Shown piece after piece: positions 8,733 through 18,204 of a stretch of DNA of 64,000 nt. This stretch comes from a virus, in the IMG/VR virus record IMGVR_UViG_3300046777_002658, positions 124,001 through 188,000 of that record; one strand, 5' to 3'. The notes beneath the pieces were generated by a model that was not told the DNA's origin, made no database searches, and saw only the letters and a list, made by a program, of their open reading frames with translations. Positions within the stretch are counted from its first letter, which is position 1. Every line of letters starts with the position of its first letter. The translations under genes were made by a program, and so were the position numbers.

Positions 8733-9092
8733 ATGGGTCTAACACAACAAAAGAAAAGTTGCTTGGCTCTTTCTGACAAGATAACAAGTTTAAAATCTGC
8801 CTTGCTGGAGGCAGTAATAAAAAAAGAACAATGGGAGGCGGAAAAAGAGATAGAAGCGTCTTTTGTGAGAACTGAGTTAAAGAACGAACAGCAGCGCAAA
8901 GCTTTTATCCTTGACCAAAAGTTTAAACCTGGCAGTCCGTGGAAAGAAATGTTTGTACAAGTCGAAAATCTAAAGATGGAGTTACAACAAGTAATGAGGG
9001 AGTACAGGATAGAGATTATAGTTTTCTCTGCTAACTGCAAGGGTGTTTTAGACAGTGAACTACCAGAGGAGGACTCCTCATTTGGCTTCTAG
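8733..9092 (+). CDS. Coiled-coil protein of unknown function
   Basis: This 119-residue protein is highly charged and helical (LKSALLEAVIKKEQWEAEKE, then LKNEQQRKAFILDQKF). It overlaps the following gene by 38 bp. No motif or family is recognised. Confidence 0.5.
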   Translation: MGLTQQKKSCLALSDKITSLKSALLEAVIKKEQWEAEKEIEASFVRTELKNEQQRKAFILDQKFKPGSPWKEMFVQVENLKMELQQVMREYRIEIIVFSANCKGVLDSELPEEDSSFGF

Positions 9093-11367: not shown

Positions 11368-13768
11368 CATAATAACCAGAACCAAAAAGCTGTTTGAGTA
11401 CATAACATCGTTGGATGCTTACTCAGCAGCCTGCAGTTTTCTTTTTGGTTCTCAAAGATTAGCTGTGGATACAGAAACCTGTGTAAGAGAAGAATGGCTG
11501 ACTAAAAAGGGCTCGGCTCTAGATCCGCACACAGGCAGAATATCTTTGATTATTATACAGAAGCCAAAAAGTCTACCCTACGTCTTTGACTTGTTTCACT
11601 TAGAGGCTGCTGGCTATAACCCTCAGATGCTCATAGATGTTCTGGAATCAACTGTAGAGTATCAGCTTGGAGTTAATTACAAGTTTGATATGCAGTTTAT
11701 GAAAGGAACTCTAAACTATATGCCAGAGAGGGTCAAAGATGTTCTGATAATGGGTAAACTGATTAGTAATGCAACTGGCTCTAAGGTTGGTAAAGGTCAT
11801 GGTCACAGCTATGCTGACTTAACTAGAGAGTACCTCAACGTTCACATCACAGGTAAAAAAGACCTTAGAACCTCATCTTGGGGGTTAGGTCTTTCTGCTA
11901 GATCCTTGGATAGTGAGTGGTGGTATGAGAAGATTCTTTATGCTGCTACTGACGTGAAGTACCTCTTTCAACTTCACGACATTATGGAGAAGGTAATATG
12001 TGACCCTTTGCCTAACTCTCCCTTACTGGGTTGGAATGGTGACTCTGGCTCTTATGGTTTGGGAATGGCTAGAGTCCTGAAAAGAGAATCTCAGTTCATT
12101 CCTATAATCGCTGAGATGGAATATGGGGGTATGCCAGTCTCCCTAGAGACAATGACTCTGTACCAAGAAGGCGTGACAGAGGCTCTAGAAGACTGTGGAG
12201 TGTACTTATCCAAAGAATTAGAGCTGGACACCCCAATCAGAAACTGGGAGGGAAGGCTTGTGCCTACTACCAAAGCCCTTAAGATGTTGAGGTCTTCAAC
12301 TGGCTTACTGGATATACTTCAGAAGGCTATTAACATGAAGAAGATTAGTGATGTGCAGGGCGTCACTCTTAAAAGGATGCTGGACATAATTGACCTTCTT
12401 CACTCCTTTAATAAGGAAGATACAGGGGGTGATGGAGAGTCAGGAGTCGAGGACATCTTTATCAACAGTGAAGAAGAGAACCTGTTTGGTGAGCTGACCA
12501 TTATGGAAGAGTCAGAACTACTAGCTATTAGTCCAGTAGTTAAGTCTATCCTAGAGTTTAAGAAGCTAACCAAACAAGAGGGGATGGACTTGAGAAAGTT
12601 TGTTAATCCTGTCACAGGAAACATACATCCTAAGTATGACCAATTAGGAGCAGCTACAAGCCGATCTTGTATAGCTGCTGGAATGAAAGTACAAGTACCA
12701 GGAGGTCAAAAGAACATAGAAGATATCCGAGTAGGAGACTATGTTTACTGCTACACAGAAGGGGGAAAACCCACTTTGAGAAAGGTTCTAAGAACTTGGT
12801 GTCATGGTGAGCAAGAAGTTGTTGCTGTTAAGTGGCAGAGTACGTCTAACAAGAGTGTAGTCGGTAAAGTATTATGCACTCCAAACCATTTGTTCAAAAC
12901 CAAACAAGAGGGGTGGGTGAAAGCAAAAGACCTTAAACGTTACCAAAAGATTTTTCATCTTCAAAGAGAAAGCTTAACGCCTTCAGCTAAGAGAAGTAGT
13001 AGACCCAGACTTTATGGGACAAACTGCTTTATGGAATATGAGCAAGTAGTAATAAAGAGAGAGTATTTTAGTGCTCCTAATAACTGGCACATTCACCACA
13101 AAGATGAAAACCCTTGGAACAATAACTTATGCAACTTGGAGGTAATGACAGGTACAGACCATTTAAGACAACATAAGATAGAAAGAGCAGAAAAAGGTTT
13201 AACCAAGTTTGAACACCTGTGCCTACCAGAAAATAGACCAAAGCTAAAACATGAAGCTGAACACCCTAGCTGGATTGAGAAAAGTAAGTTTCAACTACTG
13301 AAGATGTTAGCACAAGCTAAAGGGCACCCAGCCCAGGTAGACATGGACTTTGAGACCTTTAAGAGAAAGTGTGCTTTATACTCTATAAACATCAAAGAAG
13401 TTACTTCTAGATATGGCAAAAATGGAGTATATCTGAACAGAGCCAACGTTAGAAGAGCTTTAGACTCAAGCAAAAACACTGAGATTGCTTCTAGAAAACT
13501 AGGAATTGGCACAAGACGCTTAATAGAAGTTTGTAGAAAGTTAGGAGTTAGCTACTCTAATCATTTTGTTACTTCTGTACGCCCAGCCGGTAAAGCTATT
13601 GTGTATGACTTAGAGGTAGAGGAGTTTAACAACTTTATTTGTGAGGAGCTATGTGTTCATAACTCTTCTTCTAACCCTAACAGTCAGCAGATAGGCAATA
13701 GAAGCCATGTTACTCTCACCTTTTCAAAACCTTGGTTTGCTCCCATTGGGATTGACCTTAACCTATAA
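11360..13768 (+). CDS. DNA polymerase I family A, N-terminal block with intein 1
   Basis: The first 430 residues hold a DEDDy 3'-5' proofreading exonuclease: DTET (37-40), NYKFDMQF and YAATDVKYL supply the three motifs. The family A polymerase domain then begins. At extein AATSRS an intein interrupts; after it the extein resumes SSSNPNSQQIG, which joins to the family A consensus (TxRLSSSNPNLQ). About 25 codons after IG the frame no longer resembles polymerase and ends at 13768, because an insertion follows. The coding block therefore ends near 13690. The product is completed by blocks at 13950-14038, 14676-16438, 18205-18274, 19700-19789 and 20174-20425, predicted to give a polymerase of roughly 770 residues. 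Confidence 0.9.
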   Translation: MVDIITRTKKLFEYITSLDAYSAACSFLFGSQRLAVDTETCVREEWLTKKGSALDPHTGRISLIIIQKPKSLPYVFDLFHLEAAGYNPQMLIDVLESTVEYQLGVNYKFDMQFMKGTLNYMPERVKDVLIMGKLISNATGSKVGKGHGHSYADLTREYLNVHITGKKDLRTSSWGLGLSARSLDSEWWYEKILYAATDVKYLFQLHDIMEKVICDPLPNSPLLGWNGDSGSYGLGMARVLKRESQFIPIIAEMEYGGMPVSLETMTLYQEGVTEALEDCGVYLSKELELDTPIRNWEGRLVPTTKALKMLRSSTGLLDILQKAINMKKISDVQGVTLKRMLDIIDLLHSFNKEDTGGDGESGVEDIFINSEEENLFGELTIMEESELLAISPVVKSILEFKKLTKQEGMDLRKFVNPVTGNIHPKYDQLGAATSRSCIAAGMKVQVPGGQKNIEDIRVGDYVYCYTEGGKPTLRKVLRTWCHGEQEVVAVKWQSTSNKSVVGKVLCTPNHLFKTKQEGWVKAKDLKRYQKIFHLQRESLTPSAKRSSRPRLYGTNCFMEYEQVVIKREYFSAPNNWHIHHKDENPWNNNLCNLEVMTGTDHLRQHKIERAEKGLTKFEHLCLPENRPKLKHEAEHPSWIEKSKFQLLKMLAQAKGHPAQVDMDFETFKRKCALYSINIKEVTSRYGKNGVYLNRANVRRALDSSKNTEIASRKLGIGTRRLIEVCRKLGVSYSNHFVTSVRPAGKAIVYDLEVEEFNNFICEELCVHNSSSNPNSQQIGNRSHVTLTFSKPWFAPIGIDLNL
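12668..13663 (+). mobile_element. Intein 1 in DNA polymerase (HNH homing endonuclease)
   Basis: The 332-residue intein starts with Cys1 (CIAAGMKVQV), has a splicing-block TPNHLFK with its His, and ends LCVHN before Ser+1, the canonical HN/S junction. Between the blocks is an HNH-type segment (WHIHHKDENPWNNN, then LEV..TDHLRQH), so it is likely a mobile intein. Removal joins SRS to SSSNPN and restores a conserved family A polymerase segment. All key splicing residues are present, so splicing should be active. Confidence 0.92.
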
Positions 13769-13955
13769 AGAGTTAAGCGTGCTCTCATGTTTTAGAGAAG
13801 CAGACCACATTTGTTATCCAGATACTAACCTAACCCGAAAGGAGGTGATGCTTGCGTTGAGCACCTTAAAAGCAAAACAGTTGATAGTCCGCAGGCAATA
13901 CTATCAACTGACTAAACGAGGAAAAGAAATAAAATGTCTTCTATTTGCCAAACCA
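13690..13955 (+). other. Unexplained insertion between polymerase blocks 1 and 2
   Basis: Polymerase homology stops after SSSNPNSQQIGN near 13697 and resumes in the same frame as KLSFPGNPRVGFEAKPGRV from about 13955. The intervening roughly 260 bp contain in-frame stops. It could be a short intron, but I cannot see the R and S core segments present in the four introns downstream, so its exact ends and nature are open. The stretch codes for most of a winged-helix protein in another frame. Confidence 0.55.
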
Positions 13956-13988
13956 GAAAACTTAGCTTTCCAGGAAACCCCAGAGTAG
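13707..13988 (+). CDS. Small winged-helix protein inside polymerase insertion
   Basis: This 93-residue ORF has a clear winged-helix pattern: LTYKELSVLSCF (helix 1), LTRKEVMLALSTLKAKQLI (recognition helices) and YYQLTKRGKEI (wing), as in MarR/PadR-like DNA-binding proteins. It lies in the insertion that splits the polymerase, and its last 10-12 codons run into polymerase block 2 in a different frame. The first 12 codons may not be used. It may regulate or be cargo of the insertion; function is unknown. Confidence 0.5.
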   Translation: MLLSPFQNLGLLPLGLTLTYKELSVLSCFREADHICYPDTNLTRKEVMLALSTLKAKQLIVRRQYYQLTKRGKEIKCLLFAKPENLAFQETPE

Positions 13989-14038
13989 GATTTGAAGCCA
14001 AGCCGGGTAGAGTTCATATAAGCTGTGATTACGCGGGT
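13950..14038 (+). CDS. DNA polymerase block 2 (start of motif A)
   Basis: In the frame of block 1, this short block reads KLSFPGNPRVGFEAKPGRV then HISCDYAG. DYAG begins family A motif A (DYSQIEL in most relatives), which carries a metal-binding aspartate. The block ends with T at 14038, as expected of a group I 5' splice site, and continues with QEL at 14676. The left boundary is approximate because the preceding insertion is not resolved. Confidence 0.82.
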
Positions 14039-14675
14039 TAACTTTGAAGAGTAGATGCTTAAACCCATGATCAACCCAGAACTTTCTGCTTCACAAATAC
14101 AGCAGTTGATAGCCGATTACCAGTCAGACAAACCTGTGGCTTCCATCAGAAAAGAATATGGTTTAGACCCATACCACTTTTACAAACTCCTGCGAGAGCA
14201 GGGTGTAACTGTTAGTAGAAAACACTCTAAAAAAGCTTTAACTGAGCAGCAAGTGAAGCAGATAATGTCTGATTACCAGAGTTCCACACACGTGGAACAA
14301 ATCTTGAGTACATACAACATAAGCACAAGTGTTCTTTACAGGCTAGTAAGAGAACATAATGTGGCAAGACGGAGACTACCTTCGCTTTTGGGTAAAGCAG
14401 AGGAAATAGCATCTACTAACTAAATGGCCCCCTGCAGGCGTGAGCTTGTAGAGTAAACCTGGTTAACTAGGGGAACCCTAAGTCCTTATAGATATGGGAA
14501 TCCCTAGCCAAGCCTAACAGGAATGATAGGAAGGTGTACAGACTAGAGTTAGTAAGCTAGAACAGCAGAGGACTCCACGAACACCAGGCGTCTTGTAACC
14601 CAAGATGAAGAGATAGTCGAACCTCCAGTGAAAGCTGGAGAGGTAGGGATAAAGAACCTTACGAGAACATACAAG
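14039..14675 (+). ncRNA. Group I intron in polymerase motif A (intron 2)
   Basis: The 637-nt intron splits DYAG and QELITAAAWSK. It follows the exon U (T14038) and ends with G14675. Core elements are visible: a Q-like GGGAATCCCTAGCCAAGC near 14495, an R-like GTACAGACTAG containing GACTA (14541-14545), an S-like AGATAGTC with TAGTC (14614-14618) pairing with it as P7, and a P9 hairpin CTCCAGTGAAAGCTGGAG. The intron carries one ORF near its 5' end and no recognised homing endonuclease. Confidence 0.88.
14055..14423 (+). CDS. Tandem helix-turn-helix protein in intron 2
   Basis: This 122-residue ORF contains two related helix-turn-helix units, about residues 10-48 (QIQQLIADYQS.....I.KEYGLDPYHFYKLLRE) and 62-100 (QVKQIMSDYQS.....ILSTYNISTSVLYRLVRE). 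The repeat resembles the HTH part of resolvases or of intron-encoded DNA-binding modules, but no nuclease domain follows. It might bind DNA as a remnant or accessory of a homing enzyme. It ends before the catalytic core of the intron. Confidence 0.6.
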   Translation: MLKPMINPELSASQIQQLIADYQSDKPVASIRKEYGLDPYHFYKLLREQGVTVSRKHSKKALTEQQVKQIMSDYQSSTHVEQILSTYNISTSVLYRLVREHNVARRRLPSLLGKAEEIASTN

Positions 14676-16438
14676 CAAGAGCTAATCACAGCAGCCGCTT
14701 GGTCTAAAGACCCTACTATGGTTAACAGTTACTTGGTAGAACCAGAACTATGTCTACCTGATGGAACAAAATATCCTAACCCACTTTCTGACCTTCATTT
14801 AATTTCTGCTATGAACTGTGTAGCTCCTTCTCTTCCTTCTCTAGCAACAATATTTGTTGGTAAGCCAGAGTGGGAGTGGAGAAAGATAGCAGATAAAAGT
14901 GGAGCACGTAAGAGTGCTAAGTGTGTAACTGGAGATACTAAAGTTCTCACTTCCAGCGGATGGGTAGAAATTAGAGAGCTAGTGACACATAGGAAGGAAG
15001 GTTTTAAAGACTTTGAGAAACCTATACCTATTGCCTCAATTTCAGGTACTAAAGGAGCAACACAAGCTTATTACGGAGGAACACAAAAAGTCTTCAGATT
15101 AACTCTGAAAAATGGTTTAGAGATAAAAGCCACAGCAGAGCACAAATTCTTAGCCCAGACAGAGTTAGGTTTTGAGTGGGTCAAGCTCTCAGATCTCTCT
15201 AAAGGACAGCATTTAGTTATGAAATTAGGGTCAGATTTACACGGTCATAACTTATCCGTCCCCCAGATAAACTTGCAGGCAGTCACAAGTTACAAAGACT
15301 TAGAGATACCTAGTGAGTTAACACCAGCTCTCTCAAGATTTCTTGGGCTTTTAATATCTGAAGGAAGCCTTGAGAAAGAAGGTAATGGTTATTCAGTTTC
15401 TGTTGGTGTAGAAAAGGTAAGCATTGACTTTATACCTATTGTTGAAGAGTGTTTTTCAAGTCTCTTTAATAACAAGTTCTCTAAATGTTCTTCCAGTAAA
15501 GGGGTGCACTTTTTCATTAGCTCCGAAAAACTCTATTTATGGATGAAGCAGATAGAAGTTAAACCAGGCAGTGGCAACCAGGCTATTCCATCTCTGATTA
15601 AACAAGCTCCTAAAGCCCTTAAAGTAGAGTTTCTAAAGGCTCTATTTGAAGGGGATGGGTGTGTTCATAAAGCAGTTGGCGGTGGCAACAAGATTTGCTA
15701 CGACAGTAAGTCAAAGCAGTTATGTCTCGAGCTCCAGCTAGAGCTGTTAAATCTTGGTATTGCCAGCAATATCACCAAAGAGAAAAGGAAAAAGTATGGG
15801 TCTTACTGGAGGTTAAACATAACAGGGCGTAAACACATAAGTAGATTTGAGGAGCAGATCGGCTTTTTGACAGCTACAAAGAAAGCTTCTTTAAAAGAGG
15901 CTATAAGCAATTCTCAGCATGGAAAGTCTGTAGTATTTGTACCTGGAGGGAGAGATTACTGGAGAGAAACCATAGAAAACCCTCTATGCCCTAAAGAGTA
16001 TCTAGCTGACTTAAGACTACGCCTTCGTAGAAATATGTTAGTAGGAGAAACTTTAGTAGATAGGTTAAAGCCATTCATAGTTGACTCAACTCTAAAACAA
16101 CTGACTGATAACAACCTCTGGGTAGTTCCAGTTAAAGAAATTTTAGAGGATGGAGAGGAAGAAGTATTTGACCTTTATGAGCCAGATACTACTGCAGCTA
16201 TATTCAACGGAATAGTAGCCCAGGACTCCTTAAACTTTGGAAGCATTTATCTCATGTCTTACCAAACAGCTTCAGAGAACTTCTGTGTAAAGGAAGAGGT
16301 AGCTAAATCTTGGCTAACAGGTCACAGAACTACTTTTCCTGGGTATTATGCCTGGGCAGAAGAGTATGGAGCGATCGCAGCAGCTAGAGGATTTGCGATA
16401 TCTCCAGTATCAAAGCTCATCAGATGGGTTGGCAACTT
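14676..16438 (+). CDS. DNA polymerase block 3 with intein 2 (motifs A and B)
   Basis: The block continues motif A (QELITAAAWSKDPT), then reaches motif B as GARKSAK, which intein 2 interrupts. After the intein it resumes SLNFGSIYLMS, giving RKSAKSLNFGSIY, the family A O-helix (RxxxKxxxFGxxY). It continues to SPVSKLIRWVGN and ends with TT at 16438; the codon is completed by T at 18205, giving RWVGNFDEENAKG. The same frame runs on to a stop at 16472 but those last codons are intron. The apparent ORF upstream to 14628 is also intron. Confidence 0.88.
14922..16226 (+). mobile_element. Intein 2 in DNA polymerase (LAGLIDADG homing endonuclease)
   Basis: The 435-residue intein starts at Cys1 (CVTGDTKVLTSSGWVEI), has a block with AEHKFL, and two LAGLIDADG-type helices, FLGLLISEGSL and FLKALFEGDGCV. 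It ends IFNGIVAQD before Ser+1. The usual penultimate His and terminal Asn are Gln and Asp here. Removal rebuilds the O-helix RKSAK-SLNFG exactly. Terminal Asp is known in some natural inteins and can be compatible with splicing, but efficiency cannot be judged from sequence. Confidence 0.88.
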
Positions 16439-16638
16439 CTTACAGCCCCGCTACCAAGTGATTGGTGGATGACAACTGGGTGAATTAGGTGAATCTCCTA
16501 CTCTTATAACAAAGAGGGACAACGCCTAGCCAAGCTTACCAGGAATGGTAAGAAGGTCTAAAGACTAATGCTGTACCACCAGAACGGTGATGAGAGCAAC
16601 ACGAGCGCCCAGCAACTTCTTAATTAACAACCAAAACA

Positions 16639-16869
16639 ATGCACAGGTTTGAGAAACTAATAGACCAGTGGGGTAGACCAAATGGTGAAGTAATAAAAGA
16701 CGAGGATATGAACTGTTGGTTAGATGCAGTAGCCTATGCCAGCTTAAGAACTAACAAAACAGGTATTCAGTATAAAGCTGTCTATAACCATCTAACAAGA
16801 GCTGTTCATGTTCTACCAGAAAGAAAGTATTTGACAGAGTTAGAAAATCAAACAGAGGGTCAAAAGTAA
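16639..16869 (+). CDS. Small unknown protein in intron 3
   Basis: This 76-residue protein (VIKDEDMNCWLDAVAYASLR in the middle) is the first of five ORFs in the intron 3 loop. It has no endonuclease motif. Its stop overlaps the ATG of the next ORF (TAATG), so the ORFs form a coupled series. No family is recognised. Confidence 0.5.
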   Translation: MHRFEKLIDQWGRPNGEVIKDEDMNCWLDAVAYASLRTNKTGIQYKAVYNHLTRAVHVLPERKYLTELENQTEGQK

Positions 16870-16997
16870 TGAGCGACATTGATAAGCTAAAACAGTGGGT
16901 AAAGAGTGGAGCTGCAAAGCCTCCTGAAGGAGAAACAGCAGAGACTATGATCAGACATATAGACAAAATAGTTAACTCTAACCAGGGTAAGAAGTAG
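16869..16997 (+). CDS. Very small unknown protein in intron 3
   Basis: A 42-codon ORF starts at the ATG that overlaps the preceding stop and ends with TAG at 16997. It encodes MSDIDKLKQWVKSGAAKPPE followed by a charged helix. The tight overlap and 2-bp gap to the next ORF support it as a gene. Function is unknown. Confidence 0.45.
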   Translation: MSDIDKLKQWVKSGAAKPPEGETAETMIRHIDKIVNSNQGKK

Positions 16998-16999
16998 TT

Positions 17000-17209
17000 A
17001 TGTTTGATAAACAGCCAGAGTTAAAAAATGCTTTCTTCTTACCAAAAGATGAAGATAAGTCAGTTAAGAACTCTGTGGCACAACATCTAGAAGCAGTAGT
17101 TTCTTGGGCTAAAAAGCAGAGGATTGGTAAAGAAGAAATAGATTCTTTTACCCTTACTGCAGCCGCAGAGTATTTCCTTAAGCACAAAAAGCAGATTAAA
17201 AAGCTTTAG
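17000..17209 (+). CDS. Small unknown protein in intron 3
   Basis: This 69-residue, lysine-rich protein starts 2 bp after the previous stop. It is mostly helical and acid/base balanced. After its end comes a perfect palindrome around AAAGCTTTAGCTAAAGCTTT. No family is recognised. Confidence 0.45.
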   Translation: MFDKQPELKNAFFLPKDEDKSVKNSVAQHLEAVVSWAKKQRIGKEEIDSFTLTAAAEYFLKHKKQIKKL

Positions 17210-17220
17210 CTAAAGCTTTA

Positions 17221-17433
17221 GTGGAACAGAATACAAAACTAGAACCTAACAGCACTAACACCAAACTAAAAGACCTATTAACTTCTGGAGAGATAGTGCT
17301 GCCAGCTAACATGGAGTTTACAGAAGCACTACAGGTTCTGCATAGCCAAGCTATTTATGAGGCTAGTTTTGGTTATCTTAATGAACCACTGCCACCCGCT
17401 AAAGGTTTTGTAGTCACTAAGTCAAAGCACTAA
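17221..17433 (+). CDS. Small unknown protein in intron 3
   Basis: This 70-residue ORF begins with GTG just after the palindrome at 17197-17219. It has an acidic helical middle (TEALQVLHSQAIYEASFGY). No motif is recognised; translation is supported only by its place in the coupled series. Confidence 0.4.
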   Translation: MEQNTKLEPNSTNTKLKDLLTSGEIVLPANMEFTEALQVLHSQAIYEASFGYLNEPLPPAKGFVVTKSKH

Positions 17434-17449
17434 AAATAGAGGCGTAAAT

Positions 17450-17590
17450 ATGACAGTCAACCAAAAGCCCAAACTTAAGTGTAAGCCCACTACTTCTAGC
17501 AAAAAGATAGTAGTAAAACCTAAGAAAGTGTATGACTGTCAGCTAGAGAATGATTTTGATGACAAACTATATGAATGGTGGAGTGATTAA
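17450..17590 (+). CDS. Very small basic protein in intron 3
   Basis: A 46-codon ORF encodes a very basic N-terminal half (KPKLKCKPTTSSKKIVVKPK) and an acidic, tryptophan-containing tail ending WWSD. A GGAGGCG-like GAGGCG lies 7 bp before the ATG as a possible ribosome site. The stop overlaps the ATG of the next ORF. It may bind nucleic acid, but that is a guess from charge only. Confidence 0.45.
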   Translation: MTVNQKPKLKCKPTTSSKKIVVKPKKVYDCQLENDFDDKLYEWWSD

Positions 17591-18090
17591 TGGTTAACAA
17601 GTACAATTTGCTGTTCTTGATAAAGCTGTCTAATGGAATAGCTCACGAGTTTAGAAGAACTAGCTTGCAGAAGACTTTGAAGGACGCAATAGAAGAAGCA
17701 ATCAGTATAGAGTGTGCTGTTCAGTTTGACAATATTAACTTTGTGCTGCACTCTATTCTGTCAGAAGAGGGAGAAACAGTATGGAGTAAACAACCAAAGC
17801 TAAAAAGGTTCTCCTTGAACTTTAGTGTTTACAGAGGAAGAACAACAATAAGCAAGAAAATAACAAGCGAGGTTGAAGCAGATTCAGTAGAACAAGCTAA
17901 AGTAGCAGCAACAGAATTAGCTAACAATCTAAATTGTGATTCTCTTATCACGTACACCCTAACAAGCATAGTAGACAAAGAAACAGGAGAAGAAGAATGG
18001 AGCATTTACTGGATAAATCCTAAGAAACTACAAAAAAACCTTCCTGATCCAGCACTAACACAATTGCTTAATACTTTCTACAAGTATTAA
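17590..18090 (+). CDS. Unknown protein, last cargo gene of intron 3
   Basis: This 166-residue protein has two similar beta-alpha parts (ALKDAIEEAISIECA-like and SVEQAKVAATELANN) suggesting a duplicated small alpha/beta fold. No family is recognised. It ends just before an AAGAAAAAAGAACAAAGAATG element and the returning strand of the P8 stem. Confidence 0.5.
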   Translation: MVNKYNLLFLIKLSNGIAHEFRRTSLQKTLKDAIEEAISIECAVQFDNINFVLHSILSEEGETVWSKQPKLKRFSLNFSVYRGRTTISKKITSEVEADSVEQAKVAATELANNLNCDSLITYTLTSIVDKETGEEEWSIYWINPKKLQKNLPDPALTQLLNTFYKY

Positions 18091-18112
18091 GCAAGAAAAA
18101 AGAACAAAGAAT

Positions 18113-18132
18113 GGTTGTTAATTAAGAAGTTG
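18113..18132 (+). repeat. Returning arm of 20-bp intron 3 inverted repeat
   Basis: The sequence GGTTGTTAATTAAGAAGTTG is the exact reverse complement of CAACTTCTTAATTAACAACC at 16613-16632. The two arms flank the five cargo ORFs and sit where P8 should lie in the group I core, so they would bring the two halves of the ribozyme together across 1.5 kb. Confidence 0.85.
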
Positions 18133-18204
18133 AAGAAATAGTCTGAACGTGCAAGGTAACTTGCAGAAGCCAGTGGATAAAGAGCCCTGGCGATAACAAA
18201 AGTG

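Follow-up and report, generated by a model that had tools for sequence, protein, structure and literature searches.

A predicted phage IA-type group I intron with six open reading frames in a P8 loop closed by a perfect 21-bp stem

The 64-kb window (the whole stretch of DNA analysed here, in whose coordinates positions are given unless another record is named) comes from a virus record of 196,877 bases and possessed a family A DNA polymerase gene interrupted by introns and two inteins. The exonuclease part of the polymerase shared 26-27% identity with Microcystis phages of the Ma-LMM01 kind and a later part 30% identity with Microcoleus phage My-WqHQDG, a resemblance that points to a cyanobacterium as the likely host. 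A megablast search of the region against phages gave no match. Intron 3 interrupts the catalytic part of the gene and has the following surroundings:

16229..16429, + strand: DNA polymerase A exon upstream of intron 3, after an intein, ending ...ATCAGATGGGT
16430..18204, + strand: predicted group I intron 3, 1775 nt, IA-like with a P7.1/P7.2 region, last base G (Rfam halves, helices, covariation, exon joining)
18205..18274, + strand: polymerase exon of 70 nt between introns 3 and 4 (DEENAKGAGESSIRTAVNFAIQG; exon joining)

Joining 16429 to 18205 and 18274 to 19700 produced a single open polymerase frame (RWV/DEENAKGAGESS...AIQG/ECSQ..., slashes marking the junctions), and exon joining likewise restored an open frame in a related phage (L005). 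The joined exons agreed with two relatives that have no intron at this site (L006 and L007) and yielded a DNA_pol_A match of 62.5 bits. At the 5' border, exon ...TGGGT is followed by intron sequence TGGCAAC, and at the 3' border, intron sequence AAAGTG by exon TGATGAG, so that the 5' exon ends in U and the intron in G. The end at 18204 given by the first-pass annotation was retained, and its start at 16439 was moved to 16430 by exon joining.

The two inteins, at about 14950-16225 and about 12655-13680, carried one LAGLIDADG-like and one HNH domain. An ORF in another frame that reads as a winged-helix protein separates the N-terminal part of the polymerase (..QQIGN) from the next exon (..CDYAG); it overlaps both flanking polymerase parts and is conserved in four relatives (window 13650-14038; L005 5690-6060; L010 8600-9000; L011 9400-9770; L012 9177-9656). 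At this ORF the polymerase may be split, frameshifted or spliced by something that Rfam does not recognise. The ORF of intron 2 (14055-14423) had helix-turn-helix domains only (phrog_1303, DNA binding), and is perhaps the remnant of a homing enzyme.

At the gathering threshold, Rfam recovered intron 2 alone, and intron 3 was missed because its long loop splits the model. A permissive search matched RF00028 to each half of intron 3 separately (37.0 bits, E 8e-7; 31.1 bits, E 5e-5; each below the gathering score), in agreement with the earlier observation that the core segments lie outside the long stem. All the helices of a group I core (P3, P4, P6, P7 and P8) were present, together with P9 and P9.1, with lengths of 7 bp for P3 and P4, 6 bp for P6a, P7 and P9, 21 bp for P8 and 5 bp for P9.1. 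The core resembles those of other phage introns and has the following elements:

16476..16482, + strand: P3 5' strand CTGGGTG, partner 16606-16612 (helix table)
16485..16491, + strand: P4 5' strand, partner 16523-16529 (helix table)
16535..16552, + strand: P6a hairpin CTTACC/GGTAAG (helix table)
16562..16567, + strand: P7 5' strand AGACTA, partner 18139-18144 (helix table, covariation)
16606..16612, + strand: P3 3' strand CGCCCAG, abutting P8 (helix table)
16613..16633, + strand: P8 5' strand, 21 nt (repeat search, helix table, folding)
18112..18132, + strand: P8 3' strand, 21 nt (repeat search, helix table, folding)
18139..18144, + strand: P7 3' strand TAGTCT (helix table, covariation)
18150..18165, + strand: P9 hairpin (helix table, folding, covariation)
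18169..18191, + strand: P9.1 hairpin (helix table, folding, covariation)

The core was further examined in an alignment of 12 introns with loops removed, namely introns 2, 3 and 4 of the window, three introns from L005 and six from four other viral contigs, the latter located by a DNA pattern from the intron 3' part. In this alignment, 94.8% of the cells were paired in the proposed structure, 30 of the 41 pairs had changed on both sides, and the covariation score was 0.663, whereas shuffles gave 0.202 and slid structures no more than 0.115. Where loops were removed, the cutting points had been set to keep P8 paired in the L005 intron with a homing endonuclease gene and in the four cargo introns, which biases the P8 counts of these rows in favour of the structure; no such bias affects the remaining helices. 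In folds of the 1.83-kb RNA, pairing probabilities were near 1 for P3, P6a, P8, P9 and P9.1 and 0.52-1.0, depending on the pair, for P4, while P7, a pseudoknot, is outside the reach of nested folding. The helices, the folds and the alignment support the initial proposal of a group I core whose segments lie on either side of the loop. On its sequence, 16430-18204 belongs to the phage IA type of group I introns, and its self-splicing is predicted. Promoter and terminator scans of intron 3 remained at chance level.

Positions 16613-16632 are the exact reverse complement of 18113-18132, which matches the perfect 20-bp stem first reported, and the perfect match in fact extends to 21 bp. It is the sole perfect inverted repeat of at least 18 bp with arms within 5 kb in the window. 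Its strands lie directly beside P3' and six bases before P7', which is exactly the P8 position, and compact introns of the same subfamily have P8 at the same place, with about 5-9 bp by reading of the sequences; P8 measures 9 bp in an L005 intron whose P8 loop holds a homing gene. Partition-function folding of 1,831 nt also gave P8 a probability near 1 when the loop was shuffled, and the outer six pairs fell to 0 when the inner 15 bp were made non-complementary.

Six small, tightly spaced ORFs of 76, 42, 69, 70, 46 and 166 aa are located between the P8 strands, one more than first counted. The first ATG follows the P8 5' strand by six bases, and the last stop precedes the 3' strand by 21 bases:

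16639..16869, + strand: c1, 76 aa, initiation region overlapping P8
16869..16997, + strand: c2, 42 aa, small SGAxxPPEGET family, common to L005
17000..17209, + strand: c3, 69 aa
17221..17433, + strand: c4, 70 aa, c2 family, with an FGYLNxPLPxA motif common to L005
17450..17590, + strand: c5, 46 aa
17590..18090, + strand: c6, 166 aa, two copies of a beta-beta-alpha-beta-beta domain

Codon usage was gene-like in all six (0.21-0.43 bits per codon, compared to 0.27 ± 0.09 for known genes and -0.05 ± 0.13 for wrong frames), with the weakest coding signal in c5, for which another frame scored nearly as high. No relatives of c1 and c3 were detected in the searches made, none of c5 was present in the loci compared, and a tblastn search of c6 against phages gave no match. 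The fold search of c6 returned a weak resemblance to eL20-like tandem domains (Foldseek E 0.018; VIA Z 7.2 across 60 residues, a value inside the background range given by the tool), with no LAGLIDADG structures among the matches listed. Separately, the end of c6 lies within a 13-bp hairpin (18064-18094) that closely precedes the P8 3' strand and has no T run on the + strand.

Only one relative with this intron was found, L005, so that the comparison of P8 is one of two sequences. Its intron at the same polymerase site (8204-12652 of L005, 4.4 kb) possessed about ten cargo ORFs in a P8 loop of about 3.5 kb, including a GNAT acetyltransferase, as well as a LAGLIDADG_2 gene in another loop, between P7 and P3'. 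The L005 P8 is a perfect 19-bp stem whose first six base pairs are common to both phages; 8 of its 19 pairs differ from those of the window, all of them compensated and none broken. The minimum-energy fold of the 4.5-kb L005 RNA included this stem, which was lost without its extension. The intron was absent from more distant relatives. An additional L005 group I intron (about 12723-13605) carried a LAGLIDADG gene in its P8 loop, at a site where the window has none.

Two cargo families were shared by the two loops. The c2/c4 family had two members in the L005 loop, and the domain present in two copies in c6 occurred in three copies in an L005 protein. Among the five virus records compared, both families were common only to the two intron-bearing phages, the c6-type domain being found in the two loops only and the c2/c4 family having no convincing member elsewhere (one further match, E 0.01, contains stops); as the records may be incomplete, this lack of cargo elsewhere is weak evidence. 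In the sole intron-bearing relative, the related ORFs thus lie within the same loop, as the first-pass reading would require, and not outside the intron. Since the content of the L005 loop differs while the intron remains, the loop content appears to turn over and the intron to stay.

The same polymerase gene held further cargo in introns 4 and 5:

18275..19699, + strand: predicted group I intron 4, 1425 nt, cargo in the P8 loop, P8 18466-18477/19619-19630 (Rfam, helices, covariation, exon joining)
18667..19287, + strand: i4a, intron 4 cargo, 206 aa
19293..19598, + strand: i4b, intron 4 cargo, 101 aa
19790..20173, + strand: intron 5, VHD/E site, boundaries by reading
19940-20021: tRNA gene in intron 5, in what reads as the P6a loop

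The P8 of intron 4 is a perfect stem of 12 bp in the window and comprises 14 positions with one mismatch in L005. With dN/dS values of 0.12 for i4a and 0.24 for i4b, both genes are under purifying selection comparable to that on the phage RecA (0.20). Paralogues of i4a were present outside introns in both phages. A tblastn search of i4a against phages gave no match and a single-sequence search of viral contigs found nothing, while an alignment search of the viral contigs recovered the record of L005 only, twice. The tRNA of intron 5 has a CAT anticodon, a long variable arm and a Leu/Ser-like D arm, and a nearly identical one is located in the corresponding L005 intron (about 15110-15795), likewise in the P6a loop by reading.

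The reading that we hold with high confidence is that of a phage IA-type intron whose P8 loop is a holding place for phage genes, with the 21-bp P8 as a clamp. The polymerase messenger would be transcribed through the intron, and the P8 strands would pair across the loop; because P8 is lengthened to 21 bp, the strands that flank the 1.5-kb insert could still meet, so that P3, P7 and P8 form the core. The catalytic core would then assemble and the intron remove itself from the polymerase messenger, while translation of the cargo would use either the messenger before splicing or the intron after its excision. That the long P8 holds the intron fold together across the loop, as had been proposed from the sequence, is supported by the compensatory change between the two phages and by the predicted loss of the outer pairs without the inner 15 bp. 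We infer that the intron splices, that the cargo is expressed and that it is kept by lying in a gene that is essential and crowded with homing elements. Translation of the many ORFs in so long a loop could hinder splicing in vivo. The idea of a dock for ordinary phage genes is supported in its first half, as the loop holds six ORFs in the window and about ten in L005 and as a gene family represented in intron 4 also occurs outside introns. Its second half applies to intron 4 only, since the cargo genes of intron 3 were not found outside the intron.

P8 might instead act mainly as a switch that sequesters the start of the first cargo gene, the splicing-competent RNA being untranslated and translation of the cargo blocking splicing. 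This is a possible but clearly less probable account, which draws on the position of the region -15 to -6 of c1 within a P8 strand (16624-16633, ATG at 16639) and of the first cargo ATG of L005 (9039) within the end of its stem (9022-9040). However, neither first ORF has a Shine-Dalgarno-like sequence there, and such a switch is compatible with the clamp role of P8. In both phages P8 includes the start region of the first cargo ORF, so that pairing of P8 would be expected to compete with initiation there, and this may give P8 a second role.

It is quite improbable that the loop encodes homing endonucleases that have decayed or escaped recognition and that the intron is an ordinary mobile one, as might be suggested by the LAGLIDADG gene in the same intron of L005 and by homing-like ORFs in another intron of the polymerase gene in distant relatives. 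The L005 LAGLIDADG gene lies in the other loop, next to an intact P8-loop cassette, and the L005 relative of c6 contains three repeats. Moreover, c1-c6 are each open and coding-like and gave no match to homing endonuclease families, so that the first impression of a loop without such an enzyme was upheld.

Hardly more credible is an origin of the inverted repeats as termini of a cassette or mobile element inserted into the intron, with the P8 pairing incidental. A gene block flanked by a perfect inverted repeat of 20 bp does suggest terminal repeats, and the gene content of the loop does vary between phages. Nevertheless, the repeat occupies the exact P8 position seen in compact relatives, no second copy was present in the 197-kb record even at 3 mismatches, and c1-c6 gave no transposase-like match. 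The L005 stem differs by compensated changes, whereas element ends are sequence-specific; this origin was rejected on the compensated L005 stem and the uniqueness of the repeat in the record. Joining of the polymerase halves by trans- or back-splicing of separate transcripts is very improbable as well, since, although coral ND5-717 introns are excised by back-splicing (PMC6545197), the insert here measures 1.5 kb compared to 18 kb, the genes all run in one direction and folding of the full-length RNA predicts a closed stem.

Among the closest known arrangements is the ND5-717 group I intron of hexacoral mitochondria, which holds 2 to 16 non-homing genes in its P8 segment, such P8-loop genes being known from coral and sea anemone mitochondria (PMC6545197, PMC3073962). 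Intron 3, with six ORFs between the P8 strands and no recognisable endonuclease among them, shares with it the presence of several non-homing genes in P8. The ND5-717 intron is mitochondrial, its cargo consists of respiratory, rRNA and tRNA genes and its giant versions back-splice, whereas intron 3 belongs to a phage and combines a 1.45-kb block of small predicted genes with a perfect 21-bp P8; the claim is one of shared arrangement, not of common descent. A non-homing gene inside a group I intron is also found in the fungal mL2449 rnl intron, which carries rps3, fused to a homing endonuclease in some fungi (PMC5626475), but this is a single gene in a mitochondrial rRNA gene. Group I introns in phage DNA polymerase genes are represented by those of SPO1, with an HNH gene whose ORF is likewise in P8 (PMC3073962), and of cyanophage Pf-WMP3, of IA2 type and also with an HNH gene (PMC3428280); these encode one homing endonuclease, in contrast to the six other ORFs of intron 3. 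The IStrons of Clostridium resemble intron 3 in having cargo other than a homing gene, in their case an IS element with transposases near the 3' end (PMC4227781, PMC3984707), but no match to an IS605-type transposase was found among c1-c6. Reviews and a recent phage survey describe the loop genes of phage introns as homing nucleases, and the open-access papers searched described no phage intron whose cargo comprises several non-homing genes.

In the usual view, phage group I introns are selfish elements with one homing gene. Intron 3 would instead be a phage intron hosting operon-sized cargo, with a lengthened P8 as a simple structural solution, and the counterpart in a phage of what is known from coral and fungal mitochondria. 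Small phage genes within such introns can be missed, or mis-annotated as breaking the polymerase gene.

The intein just upstream of intron 3 (about 14950-16225) has the LAGLIDADG domain match and is missing from L005, so that co-conversion through it could spread the linked intron together with its cargo. More tentatively, the introns of this one essential gene may form a set of regulated docks (an operon in intron 3, two genes in intron 4 and a tRNA in intron 5, all of them in peripheral loops), with the lengthened P8 as clamp and as switch between splicing and cargo translation and the block spread by co-conversion with nearby inteins and homing genes; we consider this wider scheme doubtful. 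Outside introns, the same phage has two more members of the i4a family, with about 30% identity (L018 786-1598 and 7489-8124; G000:C1:79000-88000). At the intron 5 site, two relatives (L010 and L011) possess an intron with putative LAGLIDADG ORFs, by reading.
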